Of a DNA stretch of 55,598 nucleotides, positions 37,335-41,438 are shown one piece after another. Under the pieces are notes generated by a model. That model was not told the origin of the DNA and made no database searches. It saw only the letters and a list, made by a program, of their open reading frames with translations. Location of the stretch: NCBI GenBank assembly GCA_015296075.1, contig DVDV01000133.1:1-55598 (forward strand), read 5' to 3'. The DNA is from Leptolyngbyaceae cyanobacterium M33_DOE_097. GTDB lineage: Bacteria > Cyanobacteriota > Cyanobacteriia > Leptolyngbyales > Leptolyngbyaceae. The position numbers and the translations under genes are program-made. Each line of letters opens with the position of its first letter. Position 1 is the first letter of the stretch.

Positions 37335-37754
37335 TTAGCCAGCAACATTGATTTTGCCAACCATACCAGCGGTGCGGTGTGGTGCGCAGTAATAGCTATA
37401 GGAACCTGCAGGAGCATCTTTGGGGATGGTGACTTCAAAACCCTGACCAGGAGTCATCTCCATGTTGGGGTGAGATAAAGACTTAGCCAGTGCCTTATCT
37501 TGACCAGGAATTGCTTTGTCGTCAAAGACAACGTTGTGAGGAGGAACCTTGTTTACGAGAAACTTAACGGTATCACCAGGTTTAACGGTCACTTCTGCGG
37601 GTACAAATTGCAGCATACCGTTGTCAGCACCCATTTTGATGGTGACGGTATCAGCGGCAGCCGGATCAGCCGCAGCAAAGAAGCTACCAATGACCAGCAG
37701 GGCCGCGAAGAGGGTCAGGTAAAGGCTCTTTGTCAAAGACTTAATCTGTTTCAT
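37335..37754 (-). CDS. petE: Plastocyanin precursor
   Basis: Lumenal blue-copper protein that carries electrons from cytochrome b6f to photosystem I. The 139-residue precursor has a Sec/Tat-type signal peptide (1-34, ending PAAA-DTVT). Copper ligands are H73 (PPHNVVFDD), C123, H126 and M131 ([11 protein letters not shown]). Mature length about 105 fits. A 10-nt palindrome TAATCGATTA (37766-37775) sits in the leader. It follows psbV and psbV2 on the same strand, though terminators separate the genes. Copper-dependent control is typical of petE, but no regulator site was identified. Confidence 0.97.
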
Positions 37755-37887: not shown

Positions 37888-38394
37888 TTACTGAATCGGC
37901 TCATCTGTGAACTTTTTCACGCCCCAGCCTGGTGCCGTTTGCGCCGCTCTCAGCACGAAGCCCGCTAGATTTTCGATGTCTGCTTGAGCCAACCAACTTT
38001 CCGGTACTTCTCGACACCAGATGGTGTCTTCGCTGCCATCGTAGGTCAACGGATGCCGCATGTATTCCACTAAGGCGTTGATTGTATCGCGCGGTGGGGT
38101 TGCTCCCTGTAAGTCTTTGAGAGAAAGCGATACAGTCGGATTTGATAACGTGCCACCCGCCACATGGCAGTTCAAACAGTTGCGCTCAAACAGTTGCTTA
38201 CCACTGGTCAACTGCTCCGGTGAAAAGGTCTTGGTCGCCCCGTCTGCATCCAGTTCTAGAGCCACTGGCTCAGTCACTTTCAGGTACTTCGTAATGTAGG
38301 GATCCTTAGCGGCATAGGCTGGAGATAGCAGAAAGCACCAAAGTGCGATCGCCAGGGTAAACAGACGACACAGCCAGACAGATGAGTTGAGCAT
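37888..38394 (-). CDS. psbV2: Cytochrome c-550-like protein PsbV2
   Basis: A 168-residue lumenal c-type cytochrome, paralogue of PsbV. I chose the ATG at 38394: signal peptide MLNSSVWLCRLFTLAIALW then PAYA-AKDPY. Heme motif C73-x-x-C76-H77 in NCLNCHVAGG. At the place of the second axial histidine of PsbV (EVHPS) this protein has C127 in DTIWCREVPE. A Cys ligand is the known peculiarity of PsbV2 in Thermosynechococcus, so the name fits well. Tail ends GVKKFTDEPIQ, not the GGGKIYY of PsbV. Its role is not settled; it may partly replace cytochrome c-550 at PSII or act in another lumenal redox step. Confidence 0.88.
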   Translation of the reverse strand: MLNSSVWLCRLFTLAIALWCFLLSPAYAAKDPYITKYLKVTEPVALELDADGATKTFSPEQLTSGKQLFERNCLNCHVAGGTLSNPTVSLSLKDLQGATPPRDTINALVEYMRHPLTYDGSEDTIWCREVPESWLAQADIENLAGFVLRAAQTAPGWGVKKFTDEPIQ

Positions 38395-38406
38395 TAGTTT
38401 GAGATA

Positions 38407-38470
38407 GAAAAAACAACAAAAGGGCAAAGTAAGGCAGCCTTACCGTAGAAGCTGCAACCTACTCTGCCCT
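38407..38470 (-). terminator. psbV terminator and branched hairpin
   Basis: On the minus strand AGGGCAGAGTA (38470-38460) pairs with TACTTTGCCCT (38431-38421), with GTAAGG/CCTTAC arms inside, and TTTGTTGTTTTTT follows (38420-38408). It sits in the gap between psbV and psbV2 and should end most psbV transcripts. Confidence 0.78.
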
Positions 38471-38487
38471 CAACGTATTAAACAGGT

Positions 38488-38979
38488 TTAGTAATAGATC
38501 TTGCCGCCGCCCCACTTGTCGCCAACGACTTTGGGTTGAATCAAGATGTGACCTGCGATCGCGACCAGGTCTTCTTTGGTCAGGTTTCGCATTTCGGGGA
38601 AGATATCTTTGCTCTTAATGCTGGGGTGAACTTCGGAAATCTCAACTGCACCATCATAGGAGGTTGGAACTTCCATGTAATCTACCAAAGCATCAATCGT
38701 GTTGCGAGGAGGGGTAGCCAACTCTAACGATTCGGGGTCAAGCCCGACGTTAGGGTCTGTTTTAGTCACTCCACCAACATGACATTGAGCGCAAGCATAT
38801 TGAAATAGGCGTTTTCCTTCTTTAACTTGCTTCAGTGTCAAAACAGTCGTATCACCTGCTGCATTAATCGGCACTGTGCGAGTTGCTTCATCGAGTTCAG
38901 CGGCCGCAACACTGCTGACAAACGTCTGAAACGCGAAGAATACAGTGGCTACCAGAAGCCAAATGTATCTTTTAAACAT
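38488..38979 (-). CDS. psbV: Cytochrome c-550 of photosystem II
   Basis: Extrinsic lumenal subunit that stabilises the oxygen-evolving Mn cluster. 163-residue precursor: signal peptide 1-26 (ending SVAA-AELDEATRT), heme motif C63-x-x-C66-H67 (CAQCHVGG) and second axial ligand H118 in EVHPSIKSKDIF, which equal H41 and H92 of the mature protein. It ends with WGGGKIYY. AAGGAG precedes the ATG by 4 nt. First gene of the psbV-psbV2-petE cluster. Confidence 0.98.
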   Translation of the reverse strand: MFKRYIWLLVATVFFAFQTFVSSVAAAELDEATRTVPINAAGDTTVLTLKQVKEGKRLFQYACAQCHVGGVTKTDPNVGLDPESLELATPPRNTIDALVDYMEVPTSYDGAVEISEVHPSIKSKDIFPEMRNLTKEDLVAIAGHILIQPKVVGDKWGGGKIYY

Positions 38980-39300
38980 GGTTCTCCTTAGTGTGGCTCA
39001 GGTTGTGTCTTATGAGTTTACCGCGACTCAATCACCTGAACCCGGATGCAGCAACTTCAAGAGCTGATGACTGGGCATGGCATAGTCTCTCGCTTCAGAG
39101 AGAATCACCCAAGTGGTTTAGGAATTCTCAAACAGAGGTTCTGCTTAATCGGCAAGGGAGCCAACCCACCTCGCAAAATAGACTCACAAGAATCGTTTGC
39201 GACAGTGGCAGACATCCGGTTGGATTGAGTCCTTTTTAATATCTTTATCATGCCATGACCCATTACTTTCCCAAGTTTGAACTGGCTTAATGGATTTGCA
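38980..39300. other. psbV upstream region
   Basis: About 320 nt carrying the psbV promoter. An 82-codon plus-strand ORF (38991-39239) has no ribosome site and unnatural composition, and I regard it as chance. No other feature seen. Confidence 0.5.
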
Positions 39301-39334
39301 AAAAAAAAGGGGAGACACCAACTGGTATCTCCCC
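39301..39334 (-). terminator. Rho-independent terminator, minus strand
   Basis: GGGGAGACACCA (39309-39320) pairs with TGGTATCTCCCC (39323-39334) over 12 bp with one mismatch. On the minus strand it is followed by eight U (39308-39301). It is 225 nt past the gatB stop, behind a separate gatB terminator, so it probably ends another transcript. Confidence 0.85.
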
Positions 39335-39458
39335 CCTATATCATCAGGGTGCATCTACTTATCATATTATGCCATTTATAGGCTGGGGGGTGTCACCCCT
39401 CATTGAAGAAATTGTAATTTTTCTTTGAAGTTTGGTCCGAGCGCCCCGGTAGGGGATC
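39301..39458 (-). ncRNA. Candidate small RNA (about 160 nt)
   Basis: Between two terminators with no ORF, the minus strand carries CCCC-TACC-GGGG (39451-39440 region), AAGAAA/TTTCTT arms (39427-39405 region), GGGGTG-A-CACCCC (39399-39387) and the strong terminator 39334-39301. TAAAAT at 39468-39463 could be a -10 box. The 5' end and family are unknown; I do not recognise Yfr1, Yfr2, 6S or IsaR1 signatures. It could instead be the 3' UTR of gatB. Confidence 0.4.
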
Positions 39459-39505: not shown

Positions 39506-39539
39506 GGGATGGCGGTTTGGGGTTACTGGTCGCCATCCC
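39506..39539 (-). terminator. gatB terminator
   Basis: GGGATGGCG (39506-39514) and CGCCATCCC (39531-39539) form a perfect 9-bp stem with a 16-nt loop, 20 nt after the gatB stop; the minus strand then reads TCTTTATTATT. Confidence 0.8.
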
Positions 39540-39558: not shown

Positions 39559-41055
39559 TTACTCAGCGCTGGTCAACTTGTGTGCCAGTATCTGGTTTGT
39601 AAGCTTCGGGTCGGCTCGACCGTTTGTTTTCTTCATCACTTGACCGACAAAGAAGCCTTGCATTTTAGTTTTCCCAGCCCGAAATTGCTCTAACTCTTTG
39701 GGATGAGCCGCCAGTACTTCGTCAATTAAAGCCCCGATCGCATCCGCATCTGAAAGCTGAATCAGCCCTTCTGCTTCGACAAGTTTGGTGGGGGAACCGC
39801 CTGACTCTAAAAGTTTAGGCAGAACGGTTTTAGCCCCGGCATTGCTGATCGTGCCCGCTTCAATCAGACCAATTAGCTCAGCCAAGTTTGCAGGCGTAAG
39901 CTTTAGATCGGTGATGGCTAGCTCAGAATTGGCATTGAGGTAGGCACTCAGATCTTGTGTGATCCAGTTAGCGGCTTGCTTTGCAGGTGCCCCCGCTGCA
40001 ACGGTCGCCTCAAAATACTCAGCTTTGGCGCGATCGTCGGTTAAAACCCGCGCATCATAGGCCGACAGCCCCAACTCACTTTCGTAGCGCTCCCGCTTTT
40101 GGTAAGGCAGTTCGGGTAGCTCAGCCTTCCAGGTTGAAAGTTGCTCTGATGAAACTTGAATCGGCCCCAGATCAGGCTCAGGGAAATAGCGGTAATCACT
40201 CGACCCTTCTTTCACCCGCATGCTAATCGTGCGCTGGCTGCTTTCATCCCACAGGCGAGTTTCTTGCACAATTTTTTCGCCCGTCTCGATCGCCTCGATT
40301 TGACGGTCAATCTCATATTCGATCGCCCGCTGAATCGCATTGAACGAGTTCATATTCTTAATTTCGACCTTGGTGCCAAAGGTTTCAGTCCCAACTGGAC
40401 GAACTGAAATGTTGACATCGCAGCGCAACGACCCTTCTTGCATGTTGCCGTCGCTCACACCCAGGTAACGCACAATGCGGCGTAGCTCTTGGGCATACTC
40501 GGCGGCCTCTTGCCCAGTGCGCAGATCAGGTTCAGACACAATCTCAATCAGAGGGACGCCCGCCCGGTTGTAATCTACTAAAGAGTAGCTGGAGCCAGCC
40601 AGGCGATCGCTGCCACCATGCACCAGCTTGCCTGCATCTTCTTCCATGTGCAGACGAGTAATGCCAATGCGCTTGCGGGTTGCTGAGCCACTCGCTTTGT
40701 CGTATAACTCGATTTCAAGCCAGCCATGCTCGGCGATGGGCAGATCGTACTGAGAGATTTGATAGTTTTTAGGTAAGTCGGGGTAAAAGTATTGTTTGCG
40801 ATCGAATTTGCTGTAAGGGGCAATCTGACAGTTAAGAGCCAGCCCTGCTTTGACGGCATATTCCAATACTTTTTGATTTAAGACTGGCAACACCCCCGGC
40901 ATCCCCATACAAATTGGATCAATATGGGTATTGGGCGGCGCACCAAATGCCGTTGAGCTAGGGGAAAAAATCTTAGTTTCTGTACTGAGTTGGCAGTGAG
41001 TTTCTAGACCAATAACGGCTTCGTACTGAGTTTTTGCCGGAGTCGCAGTCGTCAT
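39559..41055 (-). CDS. gatB: Asp/Glu-tRNA amidotransferase subunit B
   Basis: Kinase/transferase-activating subunit of GatCAB, which amidates Glu-tRNA(Gln) and Asp-tRNA(Asn). Hallmarks: YEAVIGLETHCQLSTETKIF at the N-terminus, the GMPGVLPVLN block, FDRKQYFYPDLPKNYQISQYDLPI, HMEEDAGK with the metal-binding acids, DYNRAGVPLIEIVSEPD, and the C-terminal YqeY-like helical tail (FFVGQVMKKTNGRADPKL). I chose the ATG at 41055 (498 aa); an ATG at 41070 adds five residues. gatA and gatC are not in the window. Confidence 0.96.
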   Translation of the reverse strand: MTTATPAKTQYEAVIGLETHCQLSTETKIFSPSSTAFGAPPNTHIDPICMGMPGVLPVLNQKVLEYAVKAGLALNCQIAPYSKFDRKQYFYPDLPKNYQISQYDLPIAEHGWLEIELYDKASGSATRKRIGITRLHMEEDAGKLVHGGSDRLAGSSYSLVDYNRAGVPLIEIVSEPDLRTGQEAAEYAQELRRIVRYLGVSDGNMQEGSLRCDVNISVRPVGTETFGTKVEIKNMNSFNAIQRAIEYEIDRQIEAIETGEKIVQETRLWDESSQRTISMRVKEGSSDYRYFPEPDLGPIQVSSEQLSTWKAELPELPYQKRERYESELGLSAYDARVLTDDRAKAEYFEATVAAGAPAKQAANWITQDLSAYLNANSELAITDLKLTPANLAELIGLIEAGTISNAGAKTVLPKLLESGGSPTKLVEAEGLIQLSDADAIGALIDEVLAAHPKELEQFRAGKTKMQGFFVGQVMKKTNGRADPKLTNQILAHKLTSAE

Positions 41056-41438
41056 AAGAGCAATTCTCATGAATTCGTAGACCCTTATTTTAGCCGCTTA
41101 CCGACGATTCACAGTTTTAGCCAGGGTTTGATGACGGTGTTCCTGTAAAGGGACGACGACTGAACCATACTCAAAAAGGCGACTCAAACCTTCAAAGCTG
41201 CGAAGAAGTCAAGAACTCAGTTGGCCTTCAGTAGGGTCAAACGTTGCGTCTCTCAGAGTTAAACCCGTTTAGAAACTGCACATAGCCCATGCGTCTTCTA
41301 ATTCTTTGACTGCTTTGATCTTTTTGAGTGGTCTTTGAGTCTAATCAAGCATCTTCATTGGAGAACCGGCCCCAAACCAGGCAGTTTGAGCCGCATAAAC
41401 TTAAAAAGTACAATGCCATTTTTGGACTAAATCGTTGT
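41056..41438. other. Divergent intergenic region gatB / methyltransferase
   Basis: About 380 nt. An in-frame extension of the methyltransferase (from 41328) runs through its last part without a ribosome site. I see no hairpin, RNA gene or clear promoter box. Confidence 0.4.

Follow-up and report, generated by a model that had tools for sequence, protein, structure and literature searches.

On the minus strand of the DNA analysed here, a stretch of 55,598 nt from Leptolyngbyaceae cyanobacterium M33_DOE_097 (contig DVDV01000133.1; hereafter the window), gatB and psbV are separated by a region that had been annotated as a likely small RNA from 39458 to 39301. This raises the question of whether a gene of its own lies between the two, what it encodes and what would turn it on. 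We consider it likely, with a probability of about 0.65, that the region holds a stand-alone, HetR-activated gene for a trans-acting antisense RNA of about 60 nt, belonging to a sister lineage of NsiR1. The features concerned are the following, where class II denotes that lineage:

39559-41070, minus strand: gatB, the gene most often found upstream of class II RNAs (Pfam GatB_N and GatB_Yqey; synteny)
39506-39539, minus strand: gatB terminator-like hairpin between gatB and the RNA gene (folding)
39387-39399, minus strand: palindrome GGGGTGACACCCC centred at -35, putative HetR recognition site (13 of 17 bases as in the hetP site)
39366-39374, minus strand: extended -10 element TG-G-CATAAT (letters read; consensus of 67 genera)
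39300-39360, minus strand: class II NsiR1-like small RNA, predicted transcript (Rfam RF02399; models R1 and R2)
39342-39358, minus strand: conserved 5' core GTAGATGCACCCTGATG, presumed base-pairing region (comparison of 32 class II RNAs)
39306-39337, minus strand: intrinsic terminator hairpin and T-run (terminator consensus scan; folding)
38488-38979, minus strand: psbV-like cytochrome c-550 gene, downstream (Pfam Cytochrom_C550)

A separate small RNA gene between gatB and psbV is well supported at the sequence level, because a conserved promoter, a conserved RNA, a terminator of its own and the occurrence of class II in 120 genomes all point to it. In this respect the initial annotation holds, whereas its extent has to be shortened to the conserved RNA at 39360-39300; what lies immediately upstream of 39360 on the minus strand is promoter and not RNA. 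The RNA is taken to be about 60 nt rather than 160 nt long because the Rfam match covers 39360-39300 and the stretch 39465-39380 (minus strand) folds like shuffled sequence (z -0.33; 72 of 200 shuffles fold equally well). The latter stretch is located upstream of the predicted start at 39359-39360. The three small hairpins that had been described within about 160 nt are therefore not borne out, and one of them is the DNA palindrome GGGGTGACACCCC at 39399-39387. The 61 nt from 39360 to 39300 (minus strand) fold at -24 kcal/mol with a z of -3.26 against shuffles, and when the complete 159-nt stretch is folded as a single RNA (z -2.20) the main stem of the predicted structure is the terminator hairpin. 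This second strong terminator was recovered at 39337-39306, with nine T residues at 39308-39300 (minus strand) in place of the eight U residues that had been counted. The terminator ascribed to gatB corresponds to a terminator-like hairpin that spans exactly 39539-39506 on the minus strand (-17.2 kcal/mol, z -4.15 against shuffles) and that was missing from the terminator consensus scan on account of an interrupted U-run and a long loop. The region had also been said to hold no ORF. This is fair in substance, although mechanical ORFs of 34, 38, and 56 aa do touch the RNA; the pattern of conservation across class II, i.e., a fixed 5' core, a hairpin of variable length and a T-run, looks like that of an sRNA and not of coding sequence.

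NsiR1 (RF02399) is the sole Rfam match in the window. It covers the full model (positions 1-60, 39360-39300, minus strand) and scores 41.7 bits, where the cut-off is 39, with an E of 7e-5 for the whole window. The view that the RNA is not Yfr1, Yfr2 or 6S RNA is in agreement with this, while its kinship with NsiR1 had been overlooked. The covariance search that had been proposed as a check gives this match to NsiR1, and models of class II match copies in 120 genomes. The window RNA shares with NsiR1 a score above the gathering threshold and a conserved 5' core followed by a terminator within about 60 nt, but it has no DIF1 motif (TCCGGA) near -35 and is not placed upstream of hetF. The Rfam model finds three copies above cut-off in this genome, on contigs C105 (58.3 bits) and C345 (49.5 bits) and in the window (41.7 bits). 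Both of the others carry TCCGGA at -35. The C105 copy, the best class I copy, and a gene for a CHAT and TPR protein that is probably HetF-like are oriented divergently, with the copy about 460 nt upstream of the gene. There were also 14 weak matches in the genome (29 bits and below), and the five that were read (L004-L008) consist of terminator hairpins and lack the 5' core.

A scan for the core pattern GTAGATGCACCCTGA returned at least 117 stretches, which were pooled with 37 further loci. Together these hold at least 220 copies with a T-run in at least 138 loci, a count that includes two non-cyanobacterial records (L056 and L060) passing the T-run filter. At least 127 copies have TCC[GT]GA near -35, at least 46 have the palindrome GGGGTNNNACCCC with at most 2 mismatches, and at least one has both; L009, with a palindrome at -57 and DIF1 present, was taken out of the palindrome set. 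Matches to a 15-base core in the non-cyanobacteria L042, L066, L070, L071, L087, and L150 fail the T-run filter and were regarded as chance. Most palindrome copies have a second terminator type in common, with GAT or GGT after the core. A covariance model, R1, was built from 32 of these class II RNAs including the window copy; near-duplicates were left out, as were L068, L076, L082, L109, L132, L133, L135, and L151, which have the palindrome and a different terminator half. R1 was built on the RNA alone without the promoter. Across the 32 RNAs the core GTAGATGCACCCTGATG is invariant or nearly so, and it is mostly common to class I NsiR1.

The genome studied here is hetR-positive (PF03574, E 1e-77) and its HetR has both domains (PF03574 and PF18460). 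In a sample of 386 genomes from the phylum, HetR was called by PF03574 at E 1e-6 and class II by R1 at E 1e-6, the latter by scoring 15 first-look candidates per genome so that absences are soft. Class II was found in 84 genomes spread over the phylum and HetR in 80; both were present in 75, class II alone in 9, hetR alone in 5 and neither in 297 (Fisher p 4e-63, kinship ignored). Rescoring of twelve genomes with R1 revealed 40.8-bit copies in G051 and G341, just under the pre-set E, and class I-like scores only in G091, G115, and G363. The counts for the 386 genomes keep the pre-set threshold, and G051 enters the set of 120 class II genomes used below via E 1e-5. Among 58 relatives, this genome included, 45 had class II (E 1e-5), 48 had HetR and 44 had both, again with kinship ignored; G040 was the only one with class II and no HetR. 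In two draft genomes, G040 and G274, no hetR was found by profile or by protein search, the latter run without a positive control. In genus g89 a class II copy is found on the same strand as hetR at a distance of about 3.6 kb (L239, G329) or 4.9 kb (L194, G244).

The promoter was read for at least one copy in each of the 120 class II genomes (phylum sample and relatives), and the palindrome was called as GGGGTNNNACCCC with at most 2 mismatches at -44 to -39 from the core. Of the 110 hetR-positive genomes 104 have it, representing 65 of 67 genera and all 20 families, and so do 2 of 10 class II genomes without detectable hetR. Counted by distinct copies it was found in 133 of 151, i.e., 131 of 141 in hetR-positive and 2 of 10 in hetR-negative genomes; the second copies L240 (G329) and L244 (G244), which match R1 without having the core pattern, were dropped. 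When repeated fetches are counted, 145 of 163 class II upstream regions have the palindrome, where letter shuffles give 0.09 on average; among the matches listed none of 126 class I copies has it at the class II position. It was found in 85 of the 95 hetR-positive copies of the phylum set (101 in all) that lie outside the core-pattern scan set. The palindrome is degenerate despite hetR in all five g56 genomes read and in one of g64. Conversely, it is kept in the hetR-negative G040 (perfect) and G274 (1 mismatch) and absent from G061 and seven genomes of genus g63. By genus the contrast is 65 of 67 hetR-positive against 2 of 4 hetR-negative (p 0.014), which is weak because seven of the eight hetR-negative genomes without the palindrome are one genus.

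A consensus of one copy per genus at fixed offset (67 genera) reads [AG]GGGGT[GT][AT]CACCCC-T-CA, followed by TG-n-[CT]ATACT and, ahead of the core, by TG.TAA, with T 0.87 and G 0.94 at -16/-15 and [CT]ATACT at -13 to -8. Judged from these letters, the class II promoter is probably best described as one of the extended -10 type in which the palindrome stands where the -35 element would be. As a marker by itself GGGGTNNNACCCC was rejected. It has 47 places in this genome against 12 for a reversed control pattern, and of 19 places read (18 stretches) 7 fall in one dispersed repeat, 4 inside genes and 8 between genes; the pattern alone is not specific because many of its places fall in the repeat or in genes. 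The dispersed repeat carries GGGGTNNNACCCC beside GGGGTGCAGGGG (L306, L311, L313, L318-L320, and L323), and two of the places between genes (L321 and L322) resemble a second repeat.

The palindrome resembles known recognition sites of HetR. According to an excerpt of PMC4192349, the HetR site of hetP is GAGGGGTCTAACCCCTC, HetR requires GGGN5CCC, and the consensus quoted is tnantngnGGGtcaanCCCanca, while a ChIP consensus shows little conservation after CCC. In the 17-bp frame 39401-39385 (minus strand) the window site GAGGGGTGACACCCCCC is identical to the hetP site at 13 of 17 bases; both arms match those of the hetP site except for one base, and GGGN5CCC is present at 39398-39388 (minus strand). 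The flanking letters at -46, -44, -27, and -26 played no part in site selection and can be compared with tnantngnGGGtcaanCCCanca across the 67 genera. The A two bases before GGG, which is in the ChIP-seq consensus, is present at 39400 and has a frequency of 0.51 at -46 (G 0.46), and T at -44 one of 0.48. The CA after the second arm is conserved (C 0.90 at -27, A 0.82 at -26) and fits tnantngnGGGtcaanCCCanca; this supports the older consensus only, because the ChIP consensus is little conserved after CCC. Other letters of tnantngnGGGtcaanCCCanca do not agree, with C 0.97 at -29 (a in the consensus), C 0.01 at -36 and A 0.12 at -34, although the C at -29 is found in the hetP site itself. HetR-recognition sites have been described as distinct from DIF1 promoters, which need HetZ (PMC7377430, in excerpt), and by their letters class II and class I would fit the former and the latter, respectively. 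The exact core of the hetP site, GGGGTCTAACCCC, also occurs on the minus strand at another place in this genome (L307 1535-1547, C93:6234-6246), between ORFs of 135 and 324 aa, and this place is a candidate HetR target on sequence grounds.

It is conceivable that the palindrome is instead the operator of another regulator, possibly a repressor, and that HetR merely has the same phylogenetic range. The two hetR-negative genomes that keep the palindrome, the disagreeing letters of tnantngnGGGtcaanCCCanca, and the small number of hetR-negative genera without the palindrome (only two) would be in line with this, and the remaining GGGGTNNNACCCC places read show no visible tie to differentiation genes. 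We nevertheless find this explanation rather unlikely, as the near identity of the arms to the hetP site, the flanking CA, the presence of GGGN5CCC and the very strong co-occurrence with hetR all argue for HetR itself.

If HetR is the probable activator, it may still be asked whether the RNA is simply another NsiR1 copy that is regulated like those linked to hetF. Its score above the Rfam cut-off and the 5' core in common would suggest so, but unlike both other copies above cut-off in the genome it has no DIF1, and its terminator half differs. The covariance models separate the two classes. In 49 loci tested with R1, class II copies scored at least 44 bits and class I copies at most 36.4 bits. 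The window copy scored 57.7 bits with R1, in whose training set it is, and 56.0 bits (E 4e-13) with R2, a model of 21 RNAs from which it was left out and which gave class I copies at most 37.4 bits. Furthermore, an Rfam scan of 20 other loci holding class II recognised none of the 20 class II copies, the only NsiR1 match there being a class I copy. A plain NsiR1 copy is therefore improbable, and the sequence comparison places the window RNA in class II, which would be a sister group of NsiR1. Seven loci with the palindrome and other terminators scored 22-37 bits with R1. L068, L076, L082, L109, L132, L133, and L151, which combine the 5' core and the palindrome with other terminator halves, may constitute a third group. 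Loci of Microcystis and Hydrococcus (L079, L114, and L099) have a class II-like RNA (44-54 bits with R1) and no palindrome, and one genome (G403; L203 and L249-L251) has ten class II copies over seven contigs, with a cluster of three inside 0.9 kb of L251.

The genomic setting bears on whether the RNA is independent of its neighbours. At least 70 of 121 class II loci have gatB upstream on the same strand, at distances of 62-1293 nt, and at least 55 of 121 have an argJ-like ORF downstream, likewise on the same strand and at a median distance of 273 nt; both counts are lower bounds as many loci are short. The commonest setting seen is thus gatB - RNA - argJ, and the one argJ-like neighbour that was checked has Pfam ArgJ. 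In the window psbV takes the place that argJ has in many relatives. It is followed within 37888-38979 (minus strand) by a second, divergent member of the cytochrome c-550 family in tandem, and then by a plastocyanin-like gene (37335-37754). With argJ so often nearby, the RNA could serve argJ or psbV, whichever lies downstream, as a 5' leader or attenuator, but a leader of argJ would be expected always directly before argJ, and an argJ-like ORF was seen downstream in 55 of 121 loci. Downstream of the RNA is psbV both in the window and in the genus mate G001, in whose 8-kb stretch gatB was not found. Besides this genome, the phylum sample contains 83 genomes with class II; among the loci read from them, a gatB-linked copy was found for 55 genomes and not for 28. 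Tandem and multiple class II copies occur, and the core is also that of class I NsiR1, which has been studied by experiment as a free sRNA (excerpt of PMC9045159). All of this makes a leader quite improbable. That the RNA is a fragment of the gatB 3' UTR is hardly credible in spite of the frequent upstream gatB, given the separate terminator-like hairpin of gatB, the conserved promoter adjoining the RNA and the copies away from gatB.

For a stand-alone gene activated by HetR, we infer transcription, HetR binding and activation, an antisense mode of action and targets as follows. HetR would bind the GGGGTNNNACCCC palindrome centred at -35, which replaces the -35 hexamer, and bring RNA polymerase to the extended -10 element. 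Transcription would begin at about 39359-39360 and stop at the gene's own terminator. The largely unpaired and nearly invariant 5' core GUAGAUGCACCCUGAUG of the RNA may then pair with target mRNAs close to the ribosome-binding site, so that they are translated less, which is the effect of NsiR1 on hetF and alr3234 in Nostoc. NsiR1, which is located upstream of hetF in Nostoc, pairs in antisense with the hetF 5' UTR and the alr3234 start codon (PMC9045159). By analogy, trans-acting antisense control is the likeliest mode for class II because the core GUAGAUGCACCCUGAUG is the same as in NsiR1.

Perfect complements of the core (CAGGGTGCATC) occur at 63 sites in eight genomes, and 50 of these were read in context (30 loci and 20 stretches). 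A crude filter identified 21 of the 50 as the RNA genes themselves; it misses L369 and L380, which resemble RNA genes, and flags L359 and L387, which do not. Among the 50 sites read, no shared sense-strand target was found by the 11-base perfect complement in the eight genomes, which is weak evidence of absence. A recurring complement in L377 (G023) and L383 (G039) was rejected, because the site is antisense to the coding stretch of a conserved protein segment (VDAPCTGQSLL) and the mRNA does not contain the complement. A similar noncoding-looking stretch with the core complement was seen in L354, L362, and L384.

It is tempting to speculate that class II is an unlisted, phylum-wide sRNA family, older than heterocysts, through which HetR acts directly at the RNA level in multicellular cyanobacteria, although we hold this broader view tentatively and at somewhat less than even odds. 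If it is true, HetR fires class II via its own site while class I NsiR1 is fired from DIF1 promoters, which depend on HetZ, so that the cascade has two branches leading to RNAs with a common seed, and class II would be part of the role of HetR in filamentous strains that never make heterocysts. NsiR1 would then split into two lineages with two promoter types, one of which was caught by the Rfam scan here. A conserved sRNA with a HetR-type promoter in Leptolyngbyaceae also offers a concrete and cheap test of direct HetR output in this family. In the literature searched on NsiR1, HetR sites, gatB, and argJ, class II was not recognised, and an earlier mention is possible.

Several known systems can be compared with this gene. 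NsiR8 and NsiR9 of Nostoc sp. PCC 7120 are set apart by their description; they are 171 and 122 nt long against about 60 nt, and homologs have been reported only in heterocystous strains. RNA162 of Limnospira indica PCC 8005 appears alike by description, as it is a 57-nt RNA said to resemble NsiR1, from an RNA-seq study of a non-heterocystous strain (excerpt of PMC8400943). The promoters of hetP and hetZ in Anabaena sp. PCC 7120 share with class II GGGN5CCC, matching arms and the CA after the second arm. The class II site, which is predicted, differs from them in preceding a non-coding RNA, in having its palindrome nearly fixed at -35 and in being present also in Leptolyngbyaceae. Closest is NsiR1 itself, which has in common with class II the 5' core GUAGAUGCACCCUGAU, a length of about 60 nt, a 3' intrinsic terminator and often tandem copies. 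In class II the terminator sequence differs, a HetR-type palindrome with an extended -10 replaces DIF1 (TCCGGA), and the gene adjoins gatB, whereas NsiR1 is located upstream of hetF.
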